Source of the DNA: Halapricum salinum | GTDB taxonomy: Archaea > Halobacteriota > Halobacteria > Halobacteriales > Haloarculaceae | Length of the DNA: 64,000 nt | Assembly (NCBI RefSeq): GCF_004799665.1 | Contig: NZ_CP031310.1 | Coordinates: 1,604,887 to 1,668,886, forward strand | Direction of reading: 5' to 3' | In this document: positions 12,688 to 29,098 of the stretch, in pieces | Layout: each line of letters starts with the position of its first letter | Numbering within the stretch: position 1 is the stretch's first letter | Translations under genes and position numbers: made by a program | The notes under the pieces: generated by a model | The model's input: the letters and a program-made list of their open reading frames with translations, nothing else | Databases searched by the model: none | What the model was told of the DNA's origin: nothing

Positions 12688-14837
12688 CGTTCTCGACAGC
12701 GCGGACGGTGACAGCGGCCGACTGGCGGTCGTGGGGGCGGTGTAACGTCGCCGTCACTGGTGGCGGCGTCGTCCTGCGATCCTCGCCTGCTATCGAGGAG
12801 ACGGTACGTTCGATCGACGCCGTGGATCTGGCGGTTTCTGCCGACGGCGCGCTGTACGCGCTCGGACCGGCGGGGACGCTGACCAGACACGACCGCGAGC
12901 AGGGGATCGAACAGCAGCTGTGGCAGCCGGGTCCGGGTGCGTTCGAGCCGGCGGCGGTCTGTGTCGACGGTGATCGGGCGTACGTGGCGGACCGCTCGGC
13001 GGGGCGGCTCGTCGCCATCTCGACGCGGCTGCAGCGCCAGATCGGGACGGTCGAGACGGATCTTGAGACGCCGGTCGAGCTGGCGACGGCAGGCGGGTCG
13101 GTGCTCGCACTGGACGCCGGCCGCGAGGACTCGGCGGGGCGGCTCGTCCGGGTCGGGCCGGCCGGCCAGACCGAGTCGATCCTCGACGGTGTCGAGTCGC
13201 CACGCGACCTGCTCGTGACTGGGCGTGGGGAGGGGTGGGTGCTCGATGCACCCTCCGAAAGACCGCGCCTCCGAACGATCGATGGCGAGCGTACGCTGTC
13301 GCTGTCGTCGCTTCGGCTGGGTTCGTCGGGCGAGTCGCTGACGCCGACGTGTCTCGGCCGTTCCGAGGCGGGGCCGGTCGTTCTCGGCTGTCGGACCGAC
13401 GACGGCGAGTTCGTCCTCTGTACGTACGAGCTAGGGGCGTCTGTAGCAACCGAACGTCACCGCCAGGGGCGCTCGTGGCGGACGCTGGTCGGCGTCGAGG
13501 AAGGACCGCTGTACGCGGCCGTCGGCGACGGGTCGTGTCTCGAACTCGCGGCGACCGAACGGTACACGGTCGAACCCGGCACGTCGCGGTATCGCGGCAC
13601 GGTTCTGGGTCGGTTCGACGCCGGCACCGACGAGATCGAGTGGCATCGACTCCGACTCGATCTGGGTCGGCAGAGTTCGGGGACGCAGGTCCGGGTTCGC
13701 TACTTCGCGACGGACGGACAATCTGTCGACACCGGTGGGCTCTCGGCCCTCGAGTGCCTGTCTGCGGACGACGCCGCGACGCTGGCGTCGGCCGGCGTCA
13801 CGTCGGTCTGGGGCCTCGCGAGCAGCGATCCGGCGGTACTGTCGGCGGAGCTGCCGGCGGTGTCCGAACGCGAGGTTACAGCCTGGCGGCGGGCAGCCGA
13901 GCAGGCGATCGACTGGCGGGAGGTCGGGACGCCGGATCCGACGGACGTCCTGTTGGAGGGGGCGGCTGGCCGGTATCTCCACGTCGCGATCGAGTTGCGT
14001 GGCAGCCGGACGACCTCGCCCCGGATCGACGCCGTCGAGGCGTTCTGTCCACGCCAGTCGTACCTGCGATACCTGCCGGACATCTACCGGGAGGACGGCA
14101 CCTCGGCGGCGTTTCTCGAACGGTTTCTCTCGATCTTCGAGAGCATGTTCGTCGACGTCGAGCGCGAGATCGAGACAATCACGCGCTACTTCGATCCCGG
14201 TGGGGTGCCGAGTGATTCTCTGGAGTGGCTGGCATCGTGGTTGGCGGTCGACGTCGACGAATCGTGGCCGGAGTCGGCCCGGCGCGAACTACTCGTCCGT
14301 GCCCCGGAGCTGTACAGACAGCGCGGCACTCGCGCTGGATTGCGGGCGATGCTCGAGTTGTACCTGCGCCACGTCGAGCCGCCGGCTCCGGTTCCGGATC
14401 GTGGGTCGTCGGCGCTCAGGCGGGCGACTGAGACGGCCACGAACGCAGCTCGGGTGGCCAACGCCGACGGCGGGACCGACCGGGCCGGTGGACTACCACA
14501 CGAGCTGTTCGTGCTGGAACATGCCGACCTCGACGGGATCGAGTCGGACGCGGCGCGCGAACCGTTCGAGCGGGCGCTCGCCGGCCCGCAGTCGTTCGTG
14601 GTCTATGCGGGGCCGTTCGCACGCGAGGAGCACCACGACGCAGTCGAGCGGATCGTCGACCGGGAAGCACCGGCGCACACCCGCGGGGCGGTGGTCGGGA
14701 TCGAACAGTCGTTCGAACTGGCCGGCAACACGTTCCTCGGGGTCAACAGCACGCTGACCGACCGGGAACTGGAACTCGGACAGACGGCCCTCGGCGGCAA
14801 CGCCGTGCTACGAGGTGAGACAGATGCAACACGATAA
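12684..14837 (+). CDS. Phage tail protein (gpI-type domain) with large beta-rich N-terminal extension
   Basis: Residues about 455-565 of this 717-aa protein carry the P2 gpI-type tail domain (YLRYLPDIYREDGTSAAFLE, FDPGGVPSDSLEWLASWL, LYRQRGTRAGLRAMLELYLR), which connects fibres to the baseplate. The first 450 residues are unusual for gpI. They contain repeated short strands such as VDLAVSADGALYALGPAGTL and DRAYVADRSAGRLVAI that suggest a six- or seven-bladed propeller. The last 130 residues are beta-rich and may hold the accessory protein encoded next. It overlaps both neighbouring genes. The exact role (fibre adaptor or receptor-binding platform) is inferred. Confidence 0.82.
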   Translation: MTFSTARTVTAADWRSWGRCNVAVTGGGVVLRSSPAIEETVRSIDAVDLAVSADGALYALGPAGTLTRHDREQGIEQQLWQPGPGAFEPAAVCVDGDRAYVADRSAGRLVAISTRLQRQIGTVETDLETPVELATAGGSVLALDAGREDSAGRLVRVGPAGQTESILDGVESPRDLLVTGRGEGWVLDAPSERPRLRTIDGERTLSLSSLRLGSSGESLTPTCLGRSEAGPVVLGCRTDDGEFVLCTYELGASVATERHRQGRSWRTLVGVEEGPLYAAVGDGSCLELAATERYTVEPGTSRYRGTVLGRFDAGTDEIEWHRLRLDLGRQSSGTQVRVRYFATDGQSVDTGGLSALECLSADDAATLASAGVTSVWGLASSDPAVLSAELPAVSEREVTAWRRAAEQAIDWREVGTPDPTDVLLEGAAGRYLHVAIELRGSRTTSPRIDAVEAFCPRQSYLRYLPDIYREDGTSAAFLERFLSIFESMFVDVEREIETITRYFDPGGVPSDSLEWLASWLAVDVDESWPESARRELLVRAPELYRQRGTRAGLRAMLELYLRHVEPPAPVPDRGSSALRRATETATNAARVANADGGTDRAGGLPHELFVLEHADLDGIESDAAREPFERALAGPQSFVVYAGPFAREEHHDAVERIVDREAPAHTRGAVVGIEQSFELAGNTFLGVNSTLTDRELELGQTALGGNAVLRGETDATR

Positions 14838-16074
14838 CGATATGACAACGAAAATGCGAGAACGCGCGCTGGAACAGTTCGAGAAGAATCGGTTCTTCCA
14901 GGGCAAGCTGATGACGCCCCGGGACATGCAGGTCGAACAGGAGTACCACGCCGAGCGGTTGCACACGCTGGCGCGGTATACGATGGGGACGGGAATCGTC
15001 CGTGGGCTGGAGGTCCGGGACGTCCAGGAGACTCAGGAGGAACTGACAGTGACTGTCGCGCCCGGATTGGCCATCGACGGCTACGGGCGGCCGATCGTCG
15101 TCGAGACCGAGACCAGCAAGTCCGTCCCGGTGCCGACCAACGACGAGATCTATCTCTTCGCACGGCACGCCGAAGTGTCGACGGAGTCGGTGCCGGTCCC
15201 CGACGCTGACGGCGTCGCCGGCGACGAGCAGACGCCAAACCGTGCGATCGAAGTGTTCGAGCTGACGTATCAGGAGACTGAACCCGAGCCCGGCGAGCCG
15301 ACGCCCGAGCTCGAACTCGAACTCGACGAGGATTCTCGGGACCCGTTCCACGAGATTGCGGCGGCGTATCACGAGCAGTATCGAGAAGAGCCACGGAGCG
15401 AGAGCGACCCGGCGGTCTTCGTCGGTGCGTTCGAGCGGGGATCGGACGGGGGGTGGCAGCCCACGGAGACGGCGGTGAAGCGGCCGCTGGTGTACGATAC
15501 CGAGATGCTGTTCCGTGCGTTCGCGAGCCATCTCGCCGATACCGACAACCCTCACGGAGTGACAGTCGATCCCGAACCGAGAGACGTACCAGTGGATCTG
15601 GACGACATCGAGGGCTTCGAGCGAAAACTCCAGTTCCTCCAGGCGGAGTTGCACGAACTCAAAGAGGATCGGGACACGCTCAACCGATACCTGATGCGCA
15701 AGTCGCTGAAGGACAAGGAACGCTTCTTCCGTGACGTCGCCGACCGATTCGAGGAACACAGCGACGAGGTCAGCCGGGTCGCACAGGAGATCGTGACTGC
15801 GGCAACCGAGGGAATCGCCGCGAACGCCTACGACCAGCCAGAGATCTACCGTGAGCACGTCCGCGAGCTACTGGACGCCGAGATTCGTCTGGGTGAAACC
15901 CTCGAAGGCACGGCTACCGAAGACACACTTGACGGGTACGTCAGGGCAGTCTCACAACTCCAGAATCGCCTGGAGGACGAGGCCTCGATTCTGGACGTCG
16001 CAGTCGCACAGGACAACGTCTGTGAGGCTGCCGACTCTCTAGAGGAACTCTACGATATTGTCCCCGACACGTAA
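14824..16074 (+). CDS. Conserved CIS accessory/fibre-like protein with FFQGKLMTPRDM motif
   Basis: I favour ATG 14824 (416 aa) because GAGGTGA lies about six bases upstream; GTG 14815 and ATG 14842 are alternatives. The region RFFQGKLMTPRDMQVEQEYH, then GTGIVRGLEV and APGLAIDGYGRPIVV, matches from memory a conserved protein found in many actinobacterial and archaeal CIS loci, often taken to be a fibre or baseplate-attached protein. An Asp/Glu/Pro-rich linker follows near residues 160-180. The C-terminal half is helical and coiled-coil-like. The gene overlaps the gpI-type gene, and after it the tail-fibre end of the cluster stops at an AT-rich spacer. Confidence 0.7.
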   Translation: MQHDNDMTTKMRERALEQFEKNRFFQGKLMTPRDMQVEQEYHAERLHTLARYTMGTGIVRGLEVRDVQETQEELTVTVAPGLAIDGYGRPIVVETETSKSVPVPTNDEIYLFARHAEVSTESVPVPDADGVAGDEQTPNRAIEVFELTYQETEPEPGEPTPELELELDEDSRDPFHEIAAAYHEQYREEPRSESDPAVFVGAFERGSDGGWQPTETAVKRPLVYDTEMLFRAFASHLADTDNPHGVTVDPEPRDVPVDLDDIEGFERKLQFLQAELHELKEDRDTLNRYLMRKSLKDKERFFRDVADRFEEHSDEVSRVAQEIVTAATEGIAANAYDQPEIYREHVRELLDAEIRLGETLEGTATEDTLDGYVRAVSQLQNRLEDEASILDVAVAQDNVCEAADSLEELYDIVPDT

Positions 16075-16105
16075 CTAAAATCAATTCAATAACAACACAG
16101 AAAGA

Positions 16106-16112
16106 TTTATAA
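16106..16112 (+). promoter_or_regulatory. TATA box for the sheath-tube operon
   Basis: The 96-base spacer 16075-16170 is AT-rich and contains AGAAAG followed by TTTATAA, a good BRE/TATA pair. Transcription should begin near 16134, leaving a leader of about 35 bases before the sheath ATG at 16171. This is the only clear intergenic promoter inside the CIS locus and fits the need for many more sheath and tube copies than baseplate copies. Confidence 0.65.
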
Positions 16113-16170
16113 CCTATTCTTGTAAATTGAAGATTGTATCGGAACCGAAATTGGTGGGATATCTACAGCA

Positions 16171-17910
16171 ATGCCAGAATATCAGTCACCAGGCGTATAC
16201 GTAGAAGAGGTAGACAATGGAACAAAGGCTGTCGAGGGGGTGAGCACGAGTACGGCCGGATTCCTCGGCGAGACCGAGCGCGGGCCCGTCGAGCCCCGGC
16301 TGGTCACGAGCTTCTCTGAGTTCAAGCGTCTCTACGGATCGAGTCCGGAGACGTCCGATCTGGACGTCGCCGTCGACGGATTCTTCAAGAACGGTGGGGG
16401 CCGTTGTTACGTGGGTCGTGTCACTGCTGCCGAGCCCGAAGACCGGGCGGGGGCGACGCTGACCGACGAGAACGGCGATCCAGTGGTCGAGGTGACCGCG
16501 AACGGGCCCGGCGAGTGGGCTGAGTCGGTCGCGATCGTCGTCGACGACGGGCCGATGTACGAAGAGGGTCACAACGAGTACTTCCGGGTTCGGGTCCGCT
16601 ACTGGGCCTGCGACATCGAGAACGTCGACGAACCGGCGAGCGAGCAGCCCGATCCAGTGCCGGCCGTCGAAGAGGAGTACGAGGACATGACGCCCGACCG
16701 GGAGTCCAGTCAGTACTACGAGAAACAGACGCCGACCTCGGTCCTGATCGATCTCGAACGCGCGGGCGACGGTCGCCCGGCGGAGGGGCTGACGTGGCTC
16801 AGCACGGACACGTCGAGTTCGGCCGCCTCGGACGGTGGGCTCATCGACGCCGAGAATCAGGTCGTCATCCCAGAAGAGCTGGACGAGCAGAGTTACAACG
16901 ACCTGCAGGATATGGCCGAGCCGTTCGAGATCGACCGGAGCCAGGCCAAAGACGAGCTGGTCGAGGATCTCGAAGCGATCCGCGACGGCGAGGTCGAGGT
17001 CGACGTCGAGGTCGTCGATCCGACCCAGAAAGAGCGCGCGGACGTCGACGACGGCGAGGTATCCCTCAGTGACTTCCGTGGGATCGCCAAGCCCGGCATG
17101 CGCACGGGCCTGGAGGCGTTCAAGGAACTGGACGAGATCTCGATCGTCTGTGTGCCCGACGAGAACGACATCCGCGGGCTGACCGACGCGGTCGTCACCC
17201 ACTGTGAGAACATGGGCGAGCGTTTCGCCATCCTCCAGACGCCCCAGACGCCGGGGCCGGTCTCGGAGATGGAGACGCCGGTCGATTCGTCGTATGCTGC
17301 GTACTACGGACCGTGGCTCCGAATCAAGGACCCGTACACGAACAACGAGAAGCTCGTCCCGCCGGGCGGCCACGTCGCGGGGATCTTCGCACGCAGCGAC
17401 GTCGAACACGGCGTTCACAAGGCGCCCGCGAACGAGACGGTTCGTGGCGTCCTCGAACTGCAGTACGACTACACCAAGGGCGAGCAGGACGTCCTCAACC
17501 CCAAAGGAATCAACCTGATTCGGAGCTTCCAGGGTCGCGGGATCCGTGTGTGGGGTGCACGCACCTGCAGTAGCGATCCGTCCTGGAAGTACGTCAACGT
17601 CCGGCGGTTGTTCCTGTACATCGAGCAGTCGATCGACGAGGGGACCCAGTGGGTCGTCTTCGAGCCCAACGACGTCGACACGTGGGCGCGCGTCCGCCAG
17701 ACGGTCGAGAACTTCTTGACGACGGTCTGGCGCGAGGGCGGTCTCCAGGGTACCTCGGCCGACGAGGCGTTCTACGTCAAGTGCGGCGAGGAGACGATGA
17801 CCCAGGACGACATCGACAACGGGCGATTGATCGTCGAGATCGGAATCGCGCCGGTCAAGCCCGCCGAGTTCGTCGTCTTCCGGATCGGCCAGTGGACGGG
17901 CGACTCGTAG
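16171..17910 (+). CDS. CIS contractile sheath protein
   Basis: This 579-aa protein is of the gp18/Afp2-4 sheath family. It begins with the canonical SPGVYVEEVDNGTKAVEGVS and GFLGETERGPVEP, has FFKNGGGRCYVGRV near residue 75, and ends with the conserved C-terminal domain (FVVFRIGQWTG). Residues about 135-300 are an acidic insertion relative to minimal sheaths and probably face outward. Only one sheath gene is present, whereas Afp/PVC carry three. Sheath contraction drives the inner tube through the target envelope. The gene heads its own promoter-led unit with both tube genes. Confidence 0.95.
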   Translation: MPEYQSPGVYVEEVDNGTKAVEGVSTSTAGFLGETERGPVEPRLVTSFSEFKRLYGSSPETSDLDVAVDGFFKNGGGRCYVGRVTAAEPEDRAGATLTDENGDPVVEVTANGPGEWAESVAIVVDDGPMYEEGHNEYFRVRVRYWACDIENVDEPASEQPDPVPAVEEEYEDMTPDRESSQYYEKQTPTSVLIDLERAGDGRPAEGLTWLSTDTSSSAASDGGLIDAENQVVIPEELDEQSYNDLQDMAEPFEIDRSQAKDELVEDLEAIRDGEVEVDVEVVDPTQKERADVDDGEVSLSDFRGIAKPGMRTGLEAFKELDEISIVCVPDENDIRGLTDAVVTHCENMGERFAILQTPQTPGPVSEMETPVDSSYAAYYGPWLRIKDPYTNNEKLVPPGGHVAGIFARSDVEHGVHKAPANETVRGVLELQYDYTKGEQDVLNPKGINLIRSFQGRGIRVWGARTCSSDPSWKYVNVRRLFLYIEQSIDEGTQWVVFEPNDVDTWARVRQTVENFLTTVWREGGLQGTSADEAFYVKCGEETMTQDDIDNGRLIVEIGIAPVKPAEFVVFRIGQWTGDS

Positions 17911-17963
17911 ACACATTCGAGCACACGCAGCACGCGACATAACCATCAGAGACGAACACACGT

Positions 17964-18419
17964 ATGCCAGACAGACACGGACCACTACGACCGAACCGTT
18001 TCAAGGTGGAACTCGACGGGATCACCATCGGTGGGTTCCAGCGCGTCGAGATTCCCTCGAAGCGGACCGAACAGATCGAGTACCGAGAGGGGAACGACCC
18101 GGCCCATCACAAGCGTCTGTGGGGAAAAAACTCCTACGACGACCTGATCATGGAGCGCGGGGCGAAAAAGGAGAACGGCGACCTCTACAAGTGGCGCAAG
18201 GAGGTCGACGAGGGGAAACTCGACAAGGCACGCAAGAGCGTCGCCGTCATCCTGCAGGACGAGACCGGCGAGTCCCACCTCCGCTGGGAGTTCACCAACG
18301 CCTGGCCAAAGGAGTACCAGCCGCCGACGCTGCAGTCGAACACCGGCGCCGGGCAGGGCAACATCGCGACGGAGACGTACATCGTCACCTTCGACGAGAT
18401 GACGCGAAAGGACGTATGA
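17964..18419 (+). CDS. CIS inner tube protein 1 (gp19-like)
   Basis: This 151-aa tail tube protein of the T4 gp19/Afp1-5 family begins with LRPNRFKVELDGITIGGFQR and ends with TETYIVTFDEMTRKDV. Between them, WEFTNAWPKEYQPPTLQ is the conserved tube segment. Hexameric rings of this protein stack inside the sheath. A second, divergent tube protein is encoded at 19340; one may form the first ring(s) on the hub and the other the bulk tube, as with Pvc5 and Pvc1. The stop overlaps the ATG of a 46-aa gene. Confidence 0.93.
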   Translation: MPDRHGPLRPNRFKVELDGITIGGFQRVEIPSKRTEQIEYREGNDPAHHKRLWGKNSYDDLIMERGAKKENGDLYKWRKEVDEGKLDKARKSVAVILQDETGESHLRWEFTNAWPKEYQPPTLQSNTGAGQGNIATETYIVTFDEMTRKDV

Positions 18420-18556
18420 GGCCGGCAAACGAGCGATTCACGATTCCCGAACACGAGCAGGGTGAGGCGGCCGCCCTCGACGACGAGGGCGTCCTGCACA
18501 CCGGAAACAGCTGTCTGACCGAACGAGTCGCGATCACTGTCGGTGAGCAGCCATGA
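18416..18556 (+). CDS. 46-aa small CIS protein, translationally coupled on both sides
   Basis: The ATG overlaps the tube stop (ATGA), and the stop overlaps the next gene's ATG in the same way. This arrangement strongly supports a real small gene. The protein begins MRPANERFTIPEHEQ and ends in SCLTERVAITVGEQP. It is acidic with no domain I recognise. Afp6/Pvc6 is also a very small protein placed between tube and hub genes, so this may be its functional counterpart; that link rests on position and size only. Confidence 0.7.
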   Translation: MRPANERFTIPEHEQGEAAALDDEGVLHTGNSCLTERVAITVGEQP

Positions 18557-19089
18557 CCGGCGAGACCTTGCAGACGGAGTTCGAGTTCACGCTCCCGCGG
18601 GGATACGTCGACGACGAGGGCACGCTCCACAAGGAGGGGCGGATGCGCCTGGCGACGGCGGCCGACGAGATCAAGCCGCTGCAGGATCAGCGCGTCCAGG
18701 CCAACCAGTCGTATCTGACGATCGTCCTGCTGTCGCGAGTCGTGACCGAACTCGGCGACCTCGAAAACGTGAGTCCACACGAAATCGAGGAACTGTTCGT
18801 CGCCGACCTGGAGTATCTCCAGGCGATGTACGAACGGGTCAACAACCGCGGTGCGAACGTCGTCGAGACGGCCTGTCCGGACTGCGGCGACCCCTTCGAG
18901 GTCTCGGCGGAGACGGGCGCGCACGTCGACACGAGCCAGTCCCAGGCCGGTCTCGGAGGCGGGATGGACACGCCCGGGATCGGTGCGGCGGAGATGAGCG
19001 GCGTCGAGGGCGTCGGTGCACCGGACGGCGGTGAGATCGACGACGCGGCCGACGCGGAGGACGTGAGTGCGGGAAATCAGCCGGAGTGA
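18553..19089 (+). CDS. CIS tail assembly protein, gp26/chaperone-like, with CxxC
   Basis: This 178-aa protein has an N-terminal domain (residues 1-115) with the eCIS signature FTLPRGYVDDEGTLHKEG, MRLATAADEIKPLQDQRVQA and IEELFVADLEYLQ. This resembles T4-type small baseplate or tail-assembly proteins found beside tube genes. A CPDCGDPFEV segment gives one Cys pair, half of a normal zinc ribbon. The tail is Gly/Asp/Ala-rich and probably disordered. It overlaps both neighbours by 4 bases. Confidence 0.8.
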   Translation: MTGETLQTEFEFTLPRGYVDDEGTLHKEGRMRLATAADEIKPLQDQRVQANQSYLTIVLLSRVVTELGDLENVSPHEIEELFVADLEYLQAMYERVNNRGANVVETACPDCGDPFEVSAETGAHVDTSQSQAGLGGGMDTPGIGAAEMSGVEGVGAPDGGEIDDAADAEDVSAGNQPE

Positions 19090-19310
19090 CCCGGCTGTAC
19101 GATCCCGACCGTCTCTACGAGGAGGTGGCGTTCGTCGCCTACCACTTCGGCTGGGATCACGAGACGGTGTTGACGATGCCACACTGGGAACGCCAGCAGT
19201 GGTGTGAACGGATCAGCAGCATCAACGAGAAACGAAACAGCGAGACCGGCAGTGGTGGCATGAATCGCGGTCCCGGTGGCGGGATCGAACTGCGGAATCC
19301 ACAGCCGTAA
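19086..19310 (+). CDS. Small conserved CIS protein (DUF6760-like)
   Basis: GTG overlaps the preceding stop (GTGA). The 74-aa protein has a helical core, LYEEVAFVAYHFGWDHETVL, followed by MPHWERQQWCERISSINEK and a Gly/Asn-rich tail. This pattern, with the EVAFVAYHF and WERQQW blocks, matches my memory of a small family (DUF6760) that sits beside gp26-like genes in bacterial CIS loci. In phage terms it is where a second tail-assembly chaperone polypeptide is often found. Its exact role is unknown. Confidence 0.72.
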   Translation: MTRLYDPDRLYEEVAFVAYHFGWDHETVLTMPHWERQQWCERISSINEKRNSETGSGGMNRGPGGGIELRNPQP

Positions 19311-19339
19311 TCTCGTCTGTCGGCAGTCACTAACAGAGT

Positions 19340-19810
19340 ATGTCACCGAATCCAGGCGATCCGTACGCCAGCCAGGAGAGTCCGTACGCCGATTACAACT
19401 TCCTGGTGGAGTTGAACGGCTCGACAGTCGCGGGCTTTCGCGACGTCTCGGGTGTGAACATGGAGTTGCAGACCGTCGAGTACCAGGAGGGTGGCGTCAA
19501 CGATCACGTCCACCAGCTTCCGGGACAGTTCGCCCACGCGAACGTCGCCTTGCAGCGCGGCCTGAGCAAGGACACGACGTTCTGGGAGTGGGTCCAGACG
19601 GTGATGAGCGGCACGCTGGAAAAGCGAACCGTCGTGGTCAAGATGAAATCCGACTTTCAGGGCGACAGCCTCTGGGGGTGGGAGTTCGCCAACGCCTATC
19701 CGGTGAAGTGGAGCGGCCCGGATCTGACGACCGGTCAGAACGGCATGGCGATCGAGACGGTCGAGTTGGCCTACGAGCGCTTTCGGAAGATATCCGGCAT
19801 GCCCGAGTAG
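19340..19810 (+). CDS. CIS inner tube protein 2 (gp19-like)
   Basis: This 156-aa tube protein begins SPYADYNFLVELNGSTVAGF, continues with the VEYQEGGVNDHVHQLPGQF loop region and ends WEFANAYPVKWSGPDLTT then IETVELAYERFRKI. It is closer to the bulk tube family (HCP/gp19 with the EYQEGG motif) than the first tube gene. The gap of 29 bases to the preceding gene suggests the same transcript. It closes the recognisable CIS cluster; the next gene is a TatD-type hydrolase. Confidence 0.93.
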   Translation: MSPNPGDPYASQESPYADYNFLVELNGSTVAGFRDVSGVNMELQTVEYQEGGVNDHVHQLPGQFAHANVALQRGLSKDTTFWEWVQTVMSGTLEKRTVVVKMKSDFQGDSLWGWEFANAYPVKWSGPDLTTGQNGMAIETVELAYERFRKISGMPE

Positions 19811-20738: not shown

Positions 20739-21300
20739 CTTGCTGGCTAGGAACTGGAGACTGCAACGCTACCAACCAGAGAAAGCCCTCGCCTCGCTGG
20801 CGGTCGCTGAGCAGGATATCTTCGCTCACTCCGTTCGCTTTGATAGGGCCTGCTCAGCGACTCCACTGCGTCGCCAGACGAGTCTCGCCCTTTCGATCCG
20901 CCAGGCTCCATACTACAATCGCAGGCCTGCCCTTCCCCGGGTCGGGCCATAGAAGGCCCTCTCGGCCACCGCGGGGCGTTCAGGAAGCGTGTCGCGCGGC
21001 GTCCGCCGCGCGACCGGGGAGGTGCGGGAGACGTGACCGAAGGGAACGTCTCCGAATGAACGAGCGGGGAGAGCGAGGCGCGAACGAAGTGAGGGCCTCG
21101 AATGCGAACGGCGCAGCCGTGAGCGAAGCGACCCGCGAGTGTGGGGCTACAATAATGCGGTGTGCCTTGGAGGGCTTTCGAGGAGGTATCGTGCGCAGTG
21201 ATTGCTAGCGTGGTGAGGACTTTCGAAGAAGTAGCAGTGGTATCCTCTCAGTTTCCTAGCCAGCGTGGTGCGGACTCTCAAAGGAGTAGCGACGGAATCG
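20739..21300. repeat. Noncoding element A: structured core with inverted flanking repeat units
   Basis: This fills most of the 668-base gap after the TatD gene and has no plausible gene. GAAAGCCCTC at 20781-20790 is complementary to GAGGGCTTTC at 21170-21179. Inside are a GCTGAGCAGG/CCTGCTCAGC stem (20807-20816 and 20849-20858), a hairpin around 20944-20959 (GGGCC-ATAGAA-GGCCC), and an 11-bp hairpin at 20991-21014. Element B (28455-29095) has the same order of conserved blocks (GACTCGCCCTTTC-like, CCTGCCCTTCCCC, CAGGAAGCGTGT, ACCGGGGAGGTG) but different stem sequences that still pair. Flanking units ending in CCTAGCCAG occur once on the left (inverted) and about three times on the right. It could be an RNA or a non-autonomous transposable element. 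Confidence 0.65.
21027..21053. repeat. 8-bp hairpin with conserved 11-base loop
   Basis: GGAGACGT and ACGTCTCC enclose the loop GACCGAAGGGA. The loop length and pattern recur in hairpins at 28910, 28938, 35409, 35474 and 47611 with different stems. Confidence 0.7.
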
Positions 21301-21368
21301 TTGCCAATTCCTGGCCAGGACATCGGAGCAACGAAAACCATATCCCCCGAGGCACGAACAGCAATGAC

Positions 21369-21950
21369 ATGAGCACACCGCCGGGGGAATACTACACCGA
21401 GGAACGCTGGCAGAACTGGATCGACCGGATCGAGGAAGAAGACATCGATCCCGAAGACGAGGATTCGGCGCGCCTGCTGTTGAATCTGCAGGACGACACC
21501 GCCATCGCCGTCGCGAAGATCATCACCGATTACGACGACAGCGAACTCGAGGAGGAGACCGCGCTCGACGAGCTGGCGGACATCCGCGAGACGGTCCTTT
21601 CGGAGATCGACATCGACGACGAGGAGAAACTGATGTTGATCGACGGCGTCCAGACGTCGCTGGTCTGTGTCTTCTATGCGGCCGAGGAGTACATCGTCGG
21701 CGGAGTCGCCGAAGAGGGAACGGTCAGCGAATATATCGAGGCCGCGAGCGAGGCCGAAGCCGAGGAGGATCTGGACGCGGCGCTTGGTTACTGTGCCCAG
21801 GCCGGGACGCGGATTATCGACGGCGAGGAACTCGACCGCGACGCCGCCGAGGATCTGGAGTTCGGGCTGGTCGCCGAGTGGGTCAACGGACTCGACAGCT
21901 TGCAGACGGCTCTGAGCGATCCGGAAGTCGTCGAAGAGGACGACGAGTAG
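21369..21950 (+). CDS. DUF2150 family archaeal protein
   Basis: ATG 21369 gives an acidic 193-aa protein beginning MSTPPGEYYTEERWQNWIDR. It matches my memory of the archaeal DUF2150 family, especially the EDIDPEDEDSARLLLNLQDD and LIDGVQTSLVCVFYAAEEYI blocks. It is predicted to be all-alpha and cytoplasmic, with unknown function. The open frame extends upstream into element A, but that part lacks the acidic composition and is noncoding. It reads in the same direction as the surface-protein operon that follows. Confidence 0.85.
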   Translation: MSTPPGEYYTEERWQNWIDRIEEEDIDPEDEDSARLLLNLQDDTAIAVAKIITDYDDSELEEETALDELADIRETVLSEIDIDDEEKLMLIDGVQTSLVCVFYAAEEYIVGGVAEEGTVSEYIEAASEAEAEEDLDAALGYCAQAGTRIIDGEELDRDAAEDLEFGLVAEWVNGLDSLQTALSDPEVVEEDDE

Positions 21951-22014
21951 TCGAGTTCGAGTTCTGAGAACCGGGCGGTCACCTTTTTGCGTGTCGGGCG
22001 GAGATATAGGCTCG

Positions 22015-25000
22015 ATGCAGCTACGGGACGACCGTCGCGGGCAGGCGATCCAGATCGGAGCCGTGCTGTTGCTCGGCGCGGTAGTGCTGACGTTTTCGGT
22101 CTACCAGGCGACGGTCGTCCCCCAACAGAACAGCGAGATCGAGTTCAAACACAGTCAGACCGTCCAGGACCAGCTGTCCGACGTGCGCAACGCGATCGTC
22201 TCGACCGGTCAGATCGGTGACGGGCGGTCGGTGTCGGTGACGCTGGGGACCAACTACCCCTCACGGACCATCGCGCTGAATCCGCCGCCGCCAGTGGGAT
22301 CGCTGGGGACGGTCGGCTCGACGAACGAGTCGGTCAACGTGACGGTCGCCAACGCGGAGGCGAGCGGCGAGACAGGCGATTTCTGGACTGGCGCGAATCG
22401 ATCCTACAACACGGGTGCGCTCGTCTACCGCCCGGGGTACAATGAGTATCAGGGCGCGCCAGTAACGTGGTACGAGAACTCGGTATTGTTCAATCAGTTC
22501 CGGAGTGCGAACCTGACGGTGTCCGACCAGCGGTTGCTCGACGGGGATCGGATCTCGCTGGTGACGCTGAACGGGAGTTACTACGCGAGTCAATCCGAGA
22601 GCGTGTCACTGGACCTTCGCGGGGTCAGCACGTCGAGTCGGACGGTGTCGGTCACGAACGCGACGGCGGATTCGAACGTGACGATCACGCTGCCGACGCG
22701 GCTGACCCGGAGTGACTGGCTCGAATTACTCGACGGCGAGGACCACGTCGCGAACGTGACGACGACGGCGATTCCCGACGCGGAGTACGACCTGGTCCAC
22801 GTCGTGCTCGAACGGGACGTGACCTACGAACTGCAGGTGACGCGCGTCGGGATCGGGACGGAGGTCGTCCGACCCGAACCACGATATCTGACGAGCCGTT
22901 CGGGGTCGACACCGACTGTTCCCGAGGGCGGGCAAGTCGACTTCACGGTCGAAGTCCGGGACGCGCTGGACAATCCGAACTCGGACGTTCGGGTGATCGC
23001 CGGGACGCGCTGGGACAACTCCTCGGTGTCGCCGACCAACACTACCAGCGACGGCGACGGGACGGTGACGCTGACGTATCAGTCTCCGCCGAATATCTCG
23101 AACGCCCCACAGCGAACCGACTACGTGCAGGTGAGCCTCAACACCTCTCTTTCGAGTGCCGTCAACAGTTCGACGTTCAACGGCTCGACGGCGGTCAACG
23201 TCACCCTGCCGGTGCGCGTCGACAACAGCGACGGGAGCGGGCTGGCCGGCGATAGCGAGGCCTTCGACGTCTACTGGACGGATCCGACACAGTCGGGTGT
23301 GACCTGCCAGCAAGCCAACGATCCCGACAGCGTCTGTACCGTCAACGCCAGCGAGACGACGAGCGTCACCCTGACCAGCGACACGGGGCCGACTGCCGAC
23401 AGAGCGCAGATCGAGTACGCAGTCAACAACCGGACCGTGGGATCGGTGACGCCGAGTTCCGACACGACCGACGGGAACGGGCAGGCGTCGACGGTCTTCA
23501 CGCCGAAAGCAAACGGGACCGTGACCGTCTACGCCAGCGGTGGCGGTAGCGGCGACCGGTTGGAGTTGGTGGTCGAGAACGTCACGACTGGCGGTGGCGG
23601 CTTCGAGTTCGTCCGTGCGACGTCGATGCCGGCCTACGGCGTCAGCCAGGAGCAGAACGTCACGCTCGTCCCGAGTTCGGACATCCCCGCGAGCGAGTCG
23701 GTGTACGTCAACCTCAGCGACCCACAGCAGACCGGGCCGACGCAGGTCGACTACAACGGACCGAACGCCGTCCTCGTTCGTGACGGCGGCGGCGCGGCGA
23801 CGATCGGGAACACCAATACCTGGAACAACGAGGACAACGCGATAGTTCGCGTCGATTTCAGTGCGAACCTGACCGCCGGCACACCGATCGAACTCAGGCT
23901 CACGGGGATCGGTGTCGGCAAGCCGGGCGTCCAGACTGATCCCTACGATGTCGTGATCAACCGGACCGACGCGGCCTCGACGAACGCTTCGTTCGTCGTC
24001 GCGCCGGACGCCGGAACCTCGCGGCTGTCGAGCGTCTCCGCGACGAACCTGACGGCCGACAGTAGCGGCCAGGCCCAGACGGTCTCGTTCACGCCACAGA
24101 CGCGCTTGCCGGCCGGCGAGGTCGTCGTCGTCGAATTGTCCGATCCTCAATCGGCAGTCGATTACTCGAACGCCGGCAGGTCGTTCGCGTCCGGGAGCGA
24201 CGTGACCACGGGATCGCTGTCGTTCGAACAGCAGACGGTGACGAACACGACGCTGGTCTACACGGCTCCGTCGGGTGGTGTCAGTGCCGGCGACACCGTG
24301 GCGATCGATCTCACGAGCGTCTCGACGGCCAGCGGTTCGACGGGGAGCTACACCGTCGCGTTCAGTCGTGGCGACGCGGACGTGCGCGGGGCGACGTACG
24401 ACGTAGTTACGCCACCCGGATTCGCGGTGACGATCGATAGCACCAACAGTCCCGTCACTGAGGGAGAGACTGTCCAGGTGGACGCGACGATCGACAACAC
24501 TGGTAACGCCGGAGACACCCAGACCATCGAGTTGTACTACGACGACACCGGTGACGGGACTGCGAACACGCTGGCTGACAGCCAGCAGGTGACGCTCGCC
24601 CCCGGGGCTTCTCAGTCGACAACACTCCAATGGACGACGGCGACTGGCGACGCGGGTGACGTCGCCGTTCGTGTCGCGAGCGCCGACAACGCCGACACGT
24701 CGACGGTCACGGTCCAGCAGACCCTCCAGCCCGACGCCGTCCAGCGAAGCAACACCGTCCTCGAGTTCACGTTCGACAACACCGGCTCCCAGCAGGTGAC
24801 GATCGAGCAGTTCGCCGTCGACGCGACGGCGATCACTCCCGGAAATACCATCAACAACGGCAACTCCCTGGAAGTCGAGATCCGCGGCGGGCAACAGGAC
24901 GGCGAGGCCGGCCGGAACTCCAACCCCAAGGACTTCCTGGCCGACGGGACGCGATACGATCTCCAGACCGACAGCAACGGAAATACCGCGGGGCAGTACG

Positions 25001-25176
25001 CCGTTCTCAATTCGGGCGATCGACCGACGGTGGACATGCGTGCCTTCGCCCAGCGCCTTGACAACGGTGGCACCAATCCATTGCAGTTCACGAACTCGGC
25101 GGCTGACGCCGACGTCGTCGTGACGTTCGTGCTGAGTGACGGGACCGAGCAGGTGTTTTACCTCGAACAGCAATGA
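22015..25176 (+). CDS. Large secreted surface glycoprotein with pilin-like N-terminal anchor
   Basis: I chose ATG 22015 (1053 aa), because MQLRDDRRGQAIQIG leads directly into the hydrophobic segment AVLLLGAVVLTFSVYQ, a layout common to haloarchaeal secreted proteins with a type IV pilin-like or uncleaved N-terminal anchor. The rest is extracellular: beta-sandwich repeats, a CARDB-like domain near residues 800-900 (GETVQVDATIDNTGNAGDTQ), and many NxS/T sequons suggesting N-glycosylation. Two Cys residues in the middle (CQQANDPDSVC) could form a disulfide. No C-terminal sorting signal is seen. The 4-base overlap with the next gene implies an operon. Confidence 0.8.
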   Translation: MQLRDDRRGQAIQIGAVLLLGAVVLTFSVYQATVVPQQNSEIEFKHSQTVQDQLSDVRNAIVSTGQIGDGRSVSVTLGTNYPSRTIALNPPPPVGSLGTVGSTNESVNVTVANAEASGETGDFWTGANRSYNTGALVYRPGYNEYQGAPVTWYENSVLFNQFRSANLTVSDQRLLDGDRISLVTLNGSYYASQSESVSLDLRGVSTSSRTVSVTNATADSNVTITLPTRLTRSDWLELLDGEDHVANVTTTAIPDAEYDLVHVVLERDVTYELQVTRVGIGTEVVRPEPRYLTSRSGSTPTVPEGGQVDFTVEVRDALDNPNSDVRVIAGTRWDNSSVSPTNTTSDGDGTVTLTYQSPPNISNAPQRTDYVQVSLNTSLSSAVNSSTFNGSTAVNVTLPVRVDNSDGSGLAGDSEAFDVYWTDPTQSGVTCQQANDPDSVCTVNASETTSVTLTSDTGPTADRAQIEYAVNNRTVGSVTPSSDTTDGNGQASTVFTPKANGTVTVYASGGGSGDRLELVVENVTTGGGGFEFVRATSMPAYGVSQEQNVTLVPSSDIPASESVYVNLSDPQQTGPTQVDYNGPNAVLVRDGGGAATIGNTNTWNNEDNAIVRVDFSANLTAGTPIELRLTGIGVGKPGVQTDPYDVVINRTDAASTNASFVVAPDAGTSRLSSVSATNLTADSSGQAQTVSFTPQTRLPAGEVVVVELSDPQSAVDYSNAGRSFASGSDVTTGSLSFEQQTVTNTTLVYTAPSGGVSAGDTVAIDLTSVSTASGSTGSYTVAFSRGDADVRGATYDVVTPPGFAVTIDSTNSPVTEGETVQVDATIDNTGNAGDTQTIELYYDDTGDGTANTLADSQQVTLAPGASQSTTLQWTTATGDAGDVAVRVASADNADTSTVTVQQTLQPDAVQRSNTVLEFTFDNTGSQQVTIEQFAVDATAITPGNTINNGNSLEVEIRGGQQDGEAGRNSNPKDFLADGTRYDLQTDSNGNTAGQYAVLNSGDRPTVDMRAFAQRLDNGGTNPLQFTNSAADADVVVTFVLSDGTEQVFYLEQQ

Positions 25177-26744
25177 CTTGCCACTCTCTGGAACCGGGAC
25201 CGTCCGACCGCGCCCAGTCCGAAGTGGTGGGTGTCACCTTGCTCGTGGGCGTGTTCGCCCTGTTTGCGATCATCGTCGGCGTCGTCGTCATCGGGAGCGT
25301 CAGCGACCAGGCCGACGACGGGCCGTTAGTCGAGATCAACGTCTCGGCGACCTACACCGATCTCGTGCTGGTCCACGAAGGCGGCGACAATCTCGACGCG
25401 AGCGCGGTGACGGTGATCGTCCGCCAGGACGGCGAGGAGTGGCGCTACGGTCTCGACTCGTTCGCCGAGATCAGCGGGACCGATCCGTCACAGTTCGCCG
25501 GTGGGGAACGCTGGAACCGGAGTCACGACCTCGCGGTCGATCAGGCACGACTCTCGATCACCCACGGGCCCTCGAACACCGTCCTCTACGACGAACGGCT
25601 GGCGGTCCCGCCCGAGACGAACGAGCGACCGACGGCCCGCTTCGACTATGCGCCCTCGAAACCGGGAACGGGCGAGCAGGTCACCTTCGACGCGAGCGCG
25701 TCGAGCGATCCCGATGGTACGGTCGCGAACTACACCTGGACGTTCGGTGACGGGACCACGACCGAAACGGCCGATCCCGTGGTGAATCACACCTACCTCT
25801 CGCCCGGGGAGTACGAGGCGCGGGTGCGCGTGACCGACGACGACGGCGCGACCCGGACGAAAACGAAGACGCTGCTGGTCAACAGTCCGCCGAGCGCAGC
25901 CGTGACGGTCGACTGTACCGAGCAGGACTGTACGTTCAACGCGGGCGGGTCGACCGACGACGGGGCGATCGCCAACTACACCTGGGACTTCGGTGACGGG
26001 ACGACGACCGAGACGACCGATCCCGTGGTCGAGCACACCTATCCCGACGGTGGGAGCTACGACCTCACGCTGACGGTCACCGACGAGTTCGGGGCGACGG
26101 ATACGGCCACTTCGACTATCGAGATCAACGACCCGCCGACGGCGGCGTTCACGTACACGCCCGACCAGCCACAGGCGGGCGAACAGATCATCTTCGACGC
26201 CAGCGCGTCGAGCGACCCCAACGGCGCGATCGCCAGTTATGAGTGGGACTTCGACGGCGACGGCGCGACCGACGCAACCGGCGAGACCGTCACCCACATC
26301 TACAGCGACGGCGGGCAGTACACGGCCACGCTGACCGTGACCGACGACGACGGCGTGACGACTGCGACGAGCGAGACGCTGACCGTCTACGCGCCGCCGG
26401 TGGCGACGTTCACGACGACTCGCGACGGGAACGAGGTGATCGTCAACGCCAGTGACTCGTTCGATCCCGACGGTGGAAACCTGACTTATCGCTGGTACAC
26501 CGACGGTCTGTTCGGCCCGGTCTTCCTCGAGGAGACGACCGATCCGGTAACGAGATTCGACATCGTCGGTGAGAACGGCCAGTCGACGATCGAACTCGAA
26601 GTCGAAGACGACGACGGACAGACCGAGACGACCACGCAGACGGTCGACTATCAGGTCGAGGTGTCGAGTCCCGGCTTCGGAGCGGCGGTCGTGGTCGTGG
26701 CCGTCCTGGTCGGCGGCTGGCTCAGGCGTCGTCGAGGCGAGTGA
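25173..26744 (+). CDS. PKD-repeat surface protein with pilin-like N-terminus and PGF-CTERM signal
   Basis: The N-terminus of this 523-aa protein (RAQSEVVGVTLLVGVFALFA) resembles archaeal type IV pilin or flagellin-like signals. About four PKD/PKD-like domains follow between residues 145 and 490, with repeats of SSDPDGTVANYTWTFGDG and VTDDDGATRT. The C-terminus SSPGFGAAVVVVAVLVGGWL plus RRRRGE is a textbook PGF-CTERM archaeosortase signal. The gene converges on artA and overlaps its 3' end by 23 bases. The product is probably anchored in the envelope by ArtA processing. Having possible processing signals at both ends is unusual. Confidence 0.85.
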   Translation: MTCHSLEPGPSDRAQSEVVGVTLLVGVFALFAIIVGVVVIGSVSDQADDGPLVEINVSATYTDLVLVHEGGDNLDASAVTVIVRQDGEEWRYGLDSFAEISGTDPSQFAGGERWNRSHDLAVDQARLSITHGPSNTVLYDERLAVPPETNERPTARFDYAPSKPGTGEQVTFDASASSDPDGTVANYTWTFGDGTTTETADPVVNHTYLSPGEYEARVRVTDDDGATRTKTKTLLVNSPPSAAVTVDCTEQDCTFNAGGSTDDGAIANYTWDFGDGTTTETTDPVVEHTYPDGGSYDLTLTVTDEFGATDTATSTIEINDPPTAAFTYTPDQPQAGEQIIFDASASSDPNGAIASYEWDFDGDGATDATGETVTHIYSDGGQYTATLTVTDDDGVTTATSETLTVYAPPVATFTTTRDGNEVIVNASDSFDPDGGNLTYRWYTDGLFGPVFLEETTDPVTRFDIVGENGQSTIELEVEDDDGQTETTTQTVDYQVEVSSPGFGAAVVVVAVLVGGWLRRRRGE

Positions 26745-27585
26745 GCAGGGCGTCGGCGTCCGTCCGGGCCGCCGAGAGCAACGCGTCGACGCGCGTCTGG
26801 ATATCTGGGAATCGGCGGACAACCAGCAGGTACACCCCCAGCAGGACGAGGACGACGAGTGTCTGGGCGAAGACGTACTCGGCGAAGTAAAACGAGACTA
26901 GCGCCGGTCGATCGACGCCGAACAGGGGTGTGACCAGCACCTTCGTCCCGGCGAAGACCTCGCTGGGGATCGACCCGCCGACGACGACCGTCCGCAGGAG
27001 GTTCAGCGCGTAGATCAGTGCGCCGACGCCGACCGCGCCCCGTATTCGCGCTCTCAGTGACCGGCCGCCGATAGCGAACAGGCCAGCGAACAGCGCGATC
27101 GCGCCGAAGCCCGTACACGCCGAGACGATGTTGTAGACGATCCAGGGATGACTCTCGAAGATGATCGCAGTCGCTGGGCCCGCCGACCCCGCGACGATCA
27201 CCGGCTCGAACCCGAGCGTCGAGAGCAGGACGGCGGTGTGGGTCGTGACCGTCTGGACGACGAGCATGAAGACGGGGTCGAGAAACTGGTAGGGGACGAA
27301 CAGCAACCCCATGACCGTGAAGACGGTCGTCAGGCTGGCGTGTGGCTCGATTCGGTCGGCCGAGAGTCGGATACCGTAGCCCGAGAGGGCGGCGGTGACG
27401 AGGCTGACCGACCCGAGGACGTAGCGACTGTCCCCGAGGTACGCGGCGGCCGTGACCGCCCAGAAGCTTGCGAAGGCCGACCAGCCGACGACGGCACACG
27501 CCCGCGCGAACTCGGCGTAGTCCAACCGACGGGCCAGCACCGACACCGACAGCGCTGCCACGCTGGCGAGAAAGACGAGATCCAT
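26722..27585 (-). CDS. artA: Archaeosortase A
   Basis: ATG 27585 gives a 287-aa polytopic membrane protein starting MDLVFLASVAALSVSVLARR. The exosortase/archaeosortase signature is clear: NIVSACTGFGAIALFAGLF supplies the catalytic Cys, and NLLRTVVVGGSIPSE contains the conserved Arg region. ArtA cleaves PGF-CTERM tails and couples C-terminal lipid attachment to surface proteins. A substrate with exactly that signal is encoded convergently and overlaps it; a second is at 44465. It starts 105 bases from the divergent ThuA-like gene. Confidence 0.9.
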   Translation of the reverse strand: MDLVFLASVAALSVSVLARRLDYAEFARACAVVGWSAFASFWAVTAAAYLGDSRYVLGSVSLVTAALSGYGIRLSADRIEPHASLTTVFTVMGLLFVPYQFLDPVFMLVVQTVTTHTAVLLSTLGFEPVIVAGSAGPATAIIFESHPWIVYNIVSACTGFGAIALFAGLFAIGGRSLRARIRGAVGVGALIYALNLLRTVVVGGSIPSEVFAGTKVLVTPLFGVDRPALVSFYFAEYVFAQTLVVLVLLGVYLLVVRRFPDIQTRVDALLSAARTDADALLTRLDDA

Positions 27586-27690
27586 CGCCGAAACCGGGCG
27601 TATCAGTGTCACATTCCGTGGTGCGCGAGGGCCACACATCAATGTTGCTCGATCGGGTGATTTAGCCGTCCCCGACTCGAACGCCGACCC

Positions 27691-28428
27691 ATGTCCACTG
27701 TTACTGTCTGGAACGAGTACGTCCACGAGAAAGAAGACGAGCAGGTCGCCGAGTTGTACCCCGACGGTATTCACGAACACGTCGCCAGCGTGCTGGCCGA
27801 GGCGGGCCACGACACTCACACGGCGACCCTACAGGAACCGGAACACGGTCTGACCGAGGACGTCCTTGAAGAGACGGATGTCCTGTTCTGGTGGGGCCAC
27901 ATCGCCCACGACGAGGTCCAGGACGAGATCGCCGAGCGCGTCGCTCGGCACGTCCGCGAGGGAATGGGTCTCGTGGTGCTGCACTCGGGTCATCACTCGA
28001 AACCGTTCCGAAAGCTCCTGGGCATGCCCGCCGACCTCACCTATCGGGAGGCCGAAGAGCGCGAACGCGTGCACGTGATCGATCCCGGCCACCCCATCAC
28101 GAACGGCCTGCCCGAGACCTTCGTCGTGCCCGAAGCCGAGATGTACGGTGAGCCCTTCACCGTGCCCGAGCCCGATCGACTCGTGTTCGTCTCCTGGTTC
28201 GAGGGCGGCGAGGTGTTCCGCTCGGGGTGTTGTTACCGCCGTGGGAACGGGAAGATCTTCTACTTCCGGCCTGGACACGAAACGTACCCAGTCTACCATC
28301 AGGACGAGATTCAGACCGTGCTGCGGAACGCTGCCGAGTGGGCCGCGCCTGTGGAGGGGAGTCCGTATCCGACAGAGTGTCGGAACGTGGGTGAGCCCGC
28401 CGAGGAGATCGACGGCTACGATCCCTAG
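27691..28428 (+). CDS. ThuA-like domain protein
   Basis: This 245-aa cytoplasmic protein is of the ThuA (trehalose utilisation, class I amidotransferase-like) family. It begins [20 protein letters not shown]. The motifs [35 protein letters not shown] and [20 protein letters not shown], followed by [18 protein letters not shown], are typical. Bacterial homologues serve in disaccharide metabolism; the haloarchaeal substrate is unknown. No sugar transporter or oxidoreductase partner is adjacent. It is divergent from artA, with the promoters in the shared 105-base gap. Confidence 0.85.
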
Positions 28429-28591
28429 GAATCGATTTTCGCCGTTTTCCTCTCAGCTCGCTGGCTAGGATTCGGAGACTATGACACCAACGAGCAGGGA
28501 AAACCCTCGCCTCGCTGGCTAGGAACTGTCTCGGGAACCGGAGATGACAAGCAGGGAAAGCCCTCGCCTCGCTCGGGGCCGCTGAGATGGA

Positions 28592-28612
28592 TATTCTCGC
28601 TTCGCTCGAATA
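28592..28612. repeat. Hairpin with the conserved loop in reverse orientation
   Basis: TATTC and GAATA enclose TCGCTTCGCTC, the reverse complement of the loop GAGCGAAGCGA seen in related hairpins. It sits at the tip of one arm of element B. Confidence 0.55.
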
Positions 28613-28909
28613 GGGCCACCTCAGCGACTCCCCTACGGCCCCAGCGAGACTCGCCCTTTCATCCGCCAGGCATCTACCGCAACGGCACCCGCACAGCAAG
28701 CCTGCCCTTCCCCGAGTCGACCGATGAAACGGTCTCCCGGCCACAGTGGGGCGGTCAGGAAGCGTGTGACGGCGCAAATCGCGCCGTCACCGGGGAGGTG
28801 TGGGGTCGCAATATGGCGGTTGCATTCCCTGGTGGATGAAAGGGCGAGACTTGGCTCGGCGGTTCCCGGACGAAGTAAGCACCGGAGCGAAGCGAGGAGC
28901 GCAGCGAGT

Positions 28910-28964
28910 GTCACGCGAGCGATAGCGAGCGTGACCTCGAAAGACGAGCGTAGCGAGTCTTTCG
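28910..28964. repeat. Two adjacent hairpins with conserved loops in element B
   Basis: The first (28910-28935) pairs GTCACGC with GCGTGAC around GAGCGATAGCGA. The second (28938-28964) pairs CGAAAGAC with GTCTTTCG around GAGCGTAGCGA. The stems are unrelated in sequence while the loops match hairpins elsewhere in the window. Confidence 0.65.
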
Positions 28965-29098
28965 GTGCCCGGAGCCCCGACGAGTCGAGGGCTTTCCCTG
29001 CTCGTTGTATCCTCCAGGCACACCGTACCCTAGTGAGTATCCCTATACGGAAGCGGCCCCAAAGGCGAGGGCTTTCGAGGAGATGTCGTTTCCAGCAG

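Follow-up and report, generated by a model that had tools for sequence, protein, structure and literature searches.

Small palindromic interspersed repeats are already known in haloarchaea (PMC3119063). According to the part of that report available to us, Haloquadratum walsbyi carries palindrome-associated transposable elements (PATEs; related to IS605 types and lacking terminal inverted repeats), miniature inverted-repeat transposable elements (MITEs) that share their ends with known transposons, and repeats named SMRs of ~80-110 bp. Repetitive extragenic palindromes (REPs) are described, in the accessible part of another source, as 20-40 bp units (PMC3733652). Here, we analyze two repeats, A (~20741-21313) and B (~28457-29098, ~7.7 kb away), within a 64,000-nt stretch of the Halapricum salinum genome (the window, whose coordinates are used below). 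They are probably (with a probability of roughly 0.7) copies of a non-coding, foldback-type interspersed DNA element of a haloarchaeal family, Haloarcula included, that would spread non-autonomously and recombine between copies. Inverted arms around a core, about 30 copies, empty sites, patchy presence, a repertoire of hairpins and inverted cores are seen directly. As far as the H. walsbyi PATEs, MITEs and SMRs are described in the available text (PMC3119063), the element resembles them as a small, transposase-free interspersed repeat with some palindromes and nested elements.

The initial annotation of this DNA had proposed two copies of a structured non-coding element, with common blocks in one order and stems that vary jointly yet still pair. 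Sequence comparison confirms the order, with matching blocks at 20739-20801/28457-28519 (78% identity), 20773-20826/28548-28601 (83%), 20829-20877/28596-28644 (78%) and 20921-20992/28696-28767 (81%), and all three stem pairs quoted there are present in the sequence. Hairpin 1 (hp1) is GGGCC-ATAGAA-GGCCC in A and GACCG-ATGAAA-CGGTC in B, hairpin 2 (hp2) pairs in both copies with different letters, and the outer core stem is CTGGCG/CGCCAG as against CTCGGGGCC/GGCCCCAG, with the pairing kept. Both elements run past the blocks first described, into tandem repeats at either side; arm T and hairpin P', present on the right of B, are missing from A (partly by visual reading). Ordinary genes occupy part of the interval 20739-29095, between A and B.

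The number of copies, in turn, had been underestimated. A BLAST search with B against its own genome (G000, 3.45 Mb, one contig) yielded 146 matching pieces at E <= 1, including the query's own site and inverted halves, at several dozen places, and a covariance model of the core built from nine own-genome copies (R1) gave 24 matches at E <= 0.1. When the BLAST pieces were grouped, 33 stretches were fetched, four of which (L022, L039, L040 and L041) were dropped as holding fragments only; with two elements each in L033 and L038, 31 elements entered the gene-context count. The own genome thus holds approximately 30 copies rather than two.

The full plan, based on anchors in 30 fetched own-genome stretches (L009-L038), consists of tandem repeats R (unit ~54 nt), hairpin P, arm S (AGTCTCGCCCTTTCAATCCGCCAGG), the core, arm T (the reverse complement of S), hairpin P' and inverted repeats R'; it is complete in some of these stretches and partial in others. 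Within the core, an outer helix (CTGCCCTTCCCCG/CGGGGAGGTGTGG) is followed by hp1 (loop, e.g., ATGAAA), GGTCAGGAAGCG and hp2. Terminal inverted repeats are thus present in the S/T and R/R' arms, A and some further copies being partial in this respect, and the outer hairpins P and P' are inverted copies of one another. An S/T arm measures ~25 nt, a half-unit (T-P'-R') ~110 nt and a full element ~400-700 nt. Visual reading also revealed extra hairpins nested in hp1, in hp2 or beside T in several copies, and some of these inserted hairpins recur at different positions. In one copy (L023, ~3190-3390), a palindromic repeat of another sort (CCACTTTTT..GGGAACC type) is nested, and a similar repeat stands alone in congeners (L136 and L137), both as seen by eye. 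In Haloarcula pellucida (L046), the R arrays contain tandem units that read as near-identical, of 45 nt on the right and 62 nt on the left, and have apparently been expanded recently. A protein-coding interpretation of R was suggested by one open frame read in some genera (51-nt units), but it was dropped because unit length and frame vary between copies and genera.

Evidence on how the copies change comes from two related genomes, G191 and HArc-gm2, that have many sites in common. At 13 orthologous sites both have a core, and the matching stretches are 82-96% identical. At six of them (L060, L204, L210, L223, L225 and L229) the matching stretch takes in the element, with one flank covered at L210 and L223. 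Pairs in which just one of the two loci had a core (L205, L213, L215 and L218), pairs whose flanks point elsewhere (L060/L111, L201/L064, L201/L105, L211 with L064, L105 or L081, and L212/L075) and second loci of a site (L043, L053 and L067) were excluded. Whole hairpins, i.e., both arms together with the loop, differ at 12 of the 13 sites for hp1 and at 10 for hp2. The single site at which hp1 is alike is a level reached by 4601 of 5000 random site pairings, and the three for hp2 by 657 of 5000; neither hairpin is significantly more alike than at mismatched sites. Stems are nevertheless kept throughout (4-8 bp in hp1, 6-10 bp in hp2). The hairpins come from a small repertoire common to both genomes, an example being GCGCG-ATGAAA-CGCGC in 11/39 and 12/31 cores; for four hairpins, both orientations coexist within a single genome, one orientation predominating overall. 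Moreover, the core is inverted relative to the flanking genes at three of the 13 sites, for one of which the inversion was followed base by base. One pair of sites (L225/L075) shows, by eye, an apparent single change from G-C to A-T, which indicates that stepwise compensation also occurs.

A 16-nt palindrome, CGCGCAGWWCTGCGCG, is found four times in the own genome, always within an element, two occurrences being in hp1 and two in hp2 as judged by eye. Among the other genomes it is present in 14 of 285, 13 of these in one distant family, with at least one copy at the tip of P', whereas its reversed control is found at one place in one genome. As a separate observation, one HArc-gm2 element has flanks that correspond to those of two G191 elements lying ~100 kb apart (L201 and L211, compared with L064, L088 and L081), reflecting either a rearrangement through repeats or a misassembly of the draft.

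Sites A and B are empty in living relatives. The TatD and DUF2150 genes that flank A are adjacent without the element in G259, G109, G218 and G274; the gap between BLAST matches is 53, 72, 196 and 355 nt in four congeners, as against 634 here, and the stretch just ahead of DUF2150 is conserved in congeners lacking A. At site B, the ThuA and Trm56 genes of the congener G293 are 15 nt apart (between BLAST matches). With element limits set by eye, an overlap of up to 120 nt tolerated and genes taken from our own codon-usage predictor, all 31 examined copies are intergenic and contain no predicted gene, three of them overlapping one by 4-28 nt; by the same predictor, non-coding DNA makes up 14% of the window once A and B are set aside. 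The flanking genes are arranged ++ in 8, -- in 11, +- in 8 and -+ in 4 cases. Copies lie in either orientation: in the 19 tandem-gene cases, as read, the element points with the genes in 6 and against them in 11, two being undetermined.

Occurrence of the core is patchy. Using strict filters, we detected R1 matches in only 5 of 293 genomes sampled from the order: the own genome, one Haloarcula and three members of a single other genus. Bearers besides the own genome include strain HArc-gm2 and Haloarcula pellucida; with at most 12 candidates scored in each genome, weak copies could have escaped detection. HArc-gm2 is described, in the part of its report available, as near Halomicrobium and Halosiccatus (PMC9726719). 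Four of five congeners had no R1 match and the fifth had one marginal match (E 0.096). When one genome per species was scanned with a pattern, 45 stretches were returned (27 from HArc-gm2, one from H. pellucida and 17 from unrelated, non-haloarchaeal contigs), of which R1 matched 26 of the 27, the H. pellucida one and none of the 17. The half-unit is far more widespread, being found in 173/293 genomes and 60/87 genera against five control matches among those listed, and it also occurs alone. Congeners sampled for it have two copies (G259), two (G274) or none (G109 and G218). In five of nine half-unit loci read by eye in other genera, it adjoins a different core, which suggests that several core types exist in one superfamily. 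The different core in L157, L158, L164, L167 and L171 carries motifs read as GCGCGCTGGCGCG-like and GGGGAGG. In addition, three half-units within ~7 kb of one another (G114:C1:1923785, 1928490 and 1930924), identical over the 80 bases displayed, represent a recent local multiplication.

The coordinates of both elements are summarized in the table. Outside them, the window contains a gene cluster at 14815-19810, which we take to be a contractile tail-like cluster with a sheath-like protein encoded by one open reading frame (16171-17910), and a tRNA gene (47908-47980, minus strand); nothing else in the window reached an Rfam gathering score.

Features of elements A and B in the window
Feature	Position	Strand	Basis or remark
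A left tandem repeats R, ~54-nt unit GAAAGCCCTCgcctCGCTgGCTAGGAA..	20741..20801	+	
A hairpin P (GGTCGCTGAGCAGG-ATA..TAGGG-CCTGCTCAGCGAC)	20802..20862	+	
A arm S (AGTCTCGCCCTTTCGATCCGCCAGG)	20881..20905	+	
A core; hp1 20944-20959, hp2 20991-21014, extra hairpin insert ~21024-21139	20921..21159	+	core-model match G000:C1:1625810-1625929
A right inverted tandem repeats R'; T and P' missing	21170..21313	+	
B left tandem repeats R	28457..28576	+	
B hairpin P	28577..28628	+	
B arm S	28647..28670	+	92% complementary to 28828-28851
B core; hp1 28719-28734, hp2 28766-28790	28696..28827	+	core model, fold test
B arm T, inverted copy of S	28828..28851	+	
B right hairpin P' (GCACCG..GGAGCGCAGCGAG type), two small inserted hairpins	28858..28980	+	limits by eye
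B right inverted repeats R'	28981..29098	+	limits by eye

That the element is structured and non-coding, as first annotated, is supported by fold scores, homologues and covariation alike. No shuffled sequence folded as well as B 28548-29095 (0/100, z -8.6), the B core (0/200, z -3.1) or A 20773-21192 (0/100, z -2.7, a moderate value). Homologues were found by the covariance model. An alignment of 30 such cores, drawn from five genomes, shows two-sided changes at 11 of 33 pairs, seven of the 11 lying in helix 5 (hp2), and 93.4% of its cells pair. The covariation score of 0.222 exceeds the shuffled value of 0.081, none of 500 shuffles being as high, and controls with slid partners gave 0.017 to 0.037; this alignment leans towards structure since it was fitted to R1, a model from nine own-genome cores. 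Hairpin P likewise varies by whole pairs, its first pair being GC in 15 and CG in 9 of 24 own-genome hairpins. The absence of a match to RNase P, SRP RNA or a known riboswitch, reported at the outset, was upheld: no Rfam family matched A, B or 13 related loci at gathering score, and at E <= 10 there were weak, chance-like matches, one of which, to MAT2A_A (E 4.5), is a minus-strand match overlapping B's left repeats.

That a non-coding sequence acts as RNA is usually proved by covariation, and the initial annotation took it as strong evidence for selection on RNA (or single-stranded DNA) structure. One or more structured non-coding RNAs transcribed from each copy, with selection on the RNA fold keeping the stems, would explain a covariation above all 500 shuffles, the fold scores of A, B and the B core, near-invariant G.T pairs on one core strand and core junction sequences that are conserved across genera. 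We nevertheless judge this explanation to be unlikely, since the replacement of whole hairpins, as at the 13 orthologous sites, can account for the covariation in another way: where a single DNA event alters the two arms of a hairpin together, stepwise selection is not required for compensation, and covariation is therefore not strong evidence for an RNA gene here. An RNA gene is also hard to reconcile with a core inverted relative to its neighbors at three of the 13 sites, with the lack of a preferred orientation to genes in the 19 tandem cases, and with a core confined to 5/293 genomes and lacking an Rfam match. Furthermore, the right outer hairpin is of the reverse-complement type of the left, which means that the same loop cannot appear twice on a single strand. 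The outer hairpins give no uniform strand signal: on the motif strand in the own genome, the outer stem of P has 0 GT and 7 AC cells and that of P' has 3 GT and 1 AC, which does not fit one strand-wise reading, though the core favors the + strand.

Several observations weigh against a foldback-type DNA element. Four near-invariant G.T pairs lie on the + strand of the core, as expected of RNA or single-stranded DNA, and the remaining core pairs include 19 G.T versus 11 A.C cells (26 versus 11 in a second alignment); to judge from the sequences, these features are compatible with a structured single strand, either RNA or single-stranded DNA, of the core + strand. The kept stem lengths at orthologous sites could mean selection on structure. 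The likeness of hp2 is somewhat higher at orthologous (0.23) than at mismatched sites (0.11), a difference that is not significant. HArc-gm2 is a draft assembly, and errors in it could be the source of some of the differences. Visual inspection of A and B revealed no target-site duplication, the limits being blurred and uncertain owing to the repeats at the ends. Searches of plasmid and phage collections returned no match to the element, and four viral contigs caught by a short pattern had no core-model match. No enzyme is linked to it: the mobilizing domain Y1_Tnp (PF01797) has no match in the own genome, and the copies contain no predicted gene.

Two further explanations treat the element as DNA. 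It might be a chromosomal site similar to REPs or bacterial interspersed mosaic elements (BIMEs), domesticated rather than selfish, with a host role at 3' mRNA ends, in supercoiling, or as a nucleoid or recombination site. Exclusively intergenic copies, half-units spread over most genera sampled and hairpins that keep pairing all agree with such a role, which we still find doubtful, given that tandem, convergent and divergent gaps are all used, that four of five congeners lack a core match and that sites A and B are empty in living relatives. REPs are linked to the Y1/RAYT transposase, and the element could also be the relic of an IS200/IS605-type transposon (PATE) or of a RAYT-driven REPIN, with a Y1 transposase moving it in single-stranded form. 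Strand-specific unpaired motifs in hairpins close to either end would suit this origin, as would the Y1_Tnp matches in the three core-bearing relatives G191, G262 and G283 (4, 5 and 1, respectively; the domain is present in 180/286 sampled genomes), and elements of the kind exist in haloarchaea according to the accessible part of PMC3119063. It is very improbable all the same, as Y1_Tnp has no match in the own genome or in G143 and G059, which are rich in half-units, and as the arms are inverted, whereas PATEs are described there as having no terminal inverted repeats (PMC3119063).

Under the favored interpretation, a foldback-type DNA element, the core hairpins appear to be exchanged whole between copies. 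The products point to a non-autonomous unit that may spread by insertion or recombination and whose copies may recombine with each other; the invariant blocks between the hairpins would supply the homology for replacing the two arms of a hairpin in a single exchange. Recombination between S and T would invert the core, selection against insertion in genes or promoters would leave copies in intergenic gaps, and good hairpins would persist because each is copied as a unit. An extruded hairpin, as a cruciform or single strand, may be what the mobilizing or recombining machinery recognizes, which could also keep good hairpins. We would go as far as speculating, with a good deal of reserve, about an active haloarchaeal DNA system (a dedicated recombinase or a cruciform-processing activity) that would recognize hairpins once extruded, exchange them among dozens of chromosomal sites and flip the core; the hairpin itself would then be the unit that is exchanged and that passes laterally from one family to another. 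If true, such a hairpin-cassette system would generate structural variation at many intergenic loci, with possible gene switching or genome rearrangement.

For RNA-discovery pipelines applied to repeat-rich genomes, the element provides a warning that strong covariation can arise from the swapping of whole hairpins between DNA repeats. Comparisons of strains could, in addition, use this natural system to measure hairpin exchange and small inversions.

Compared with previously described repeats, the element shares features with several classes. Foldback (FB) transposons are eukaryotic and have long inverted arms built of tandem repeats; we know of none with a defined structured core of the present sort. 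MITE traits are found in its terminal inverted repeats and in the lack of a predicted gene inside its 31 copies. As with REPs, BIMEs and REPINs, at least in the parts of the sources available (PMC3733652, PMC12306157), palindromic repeats stand in intergenic regions singly or as inverted pairs, and the half-unit here also occurs alone; unlike the REPs described there, the half-unit is ~110 nt and the full element ~400-700 nt long, with a large core, in a host without a Y1 match. In the main text of both sources, so far as available, no word beginning with 'halo' occurs. Repetitive hairpin-forming elements of mitochondria are similar as hairpin modules that invade intergenic DNA with a scattered distribution, and differ in being organellar and, in what the abstract describes, in having neither an inverted-arm architecture nor such a conserved core (PMC2800124). 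No description of the element was found in the open-access literature, covered mostly through titles and abstract openings, and its architecture and hairpin reassortment appear to be new. Set beside the PATEs, MITEs and SMRs of H. walsbyi, as these are presented in the available part of PMC3119063, it is distinguished by its size of ~400-700 nt, its arms of tandem repeats plus a hairpin, its conserved core and its hairpin exchange.

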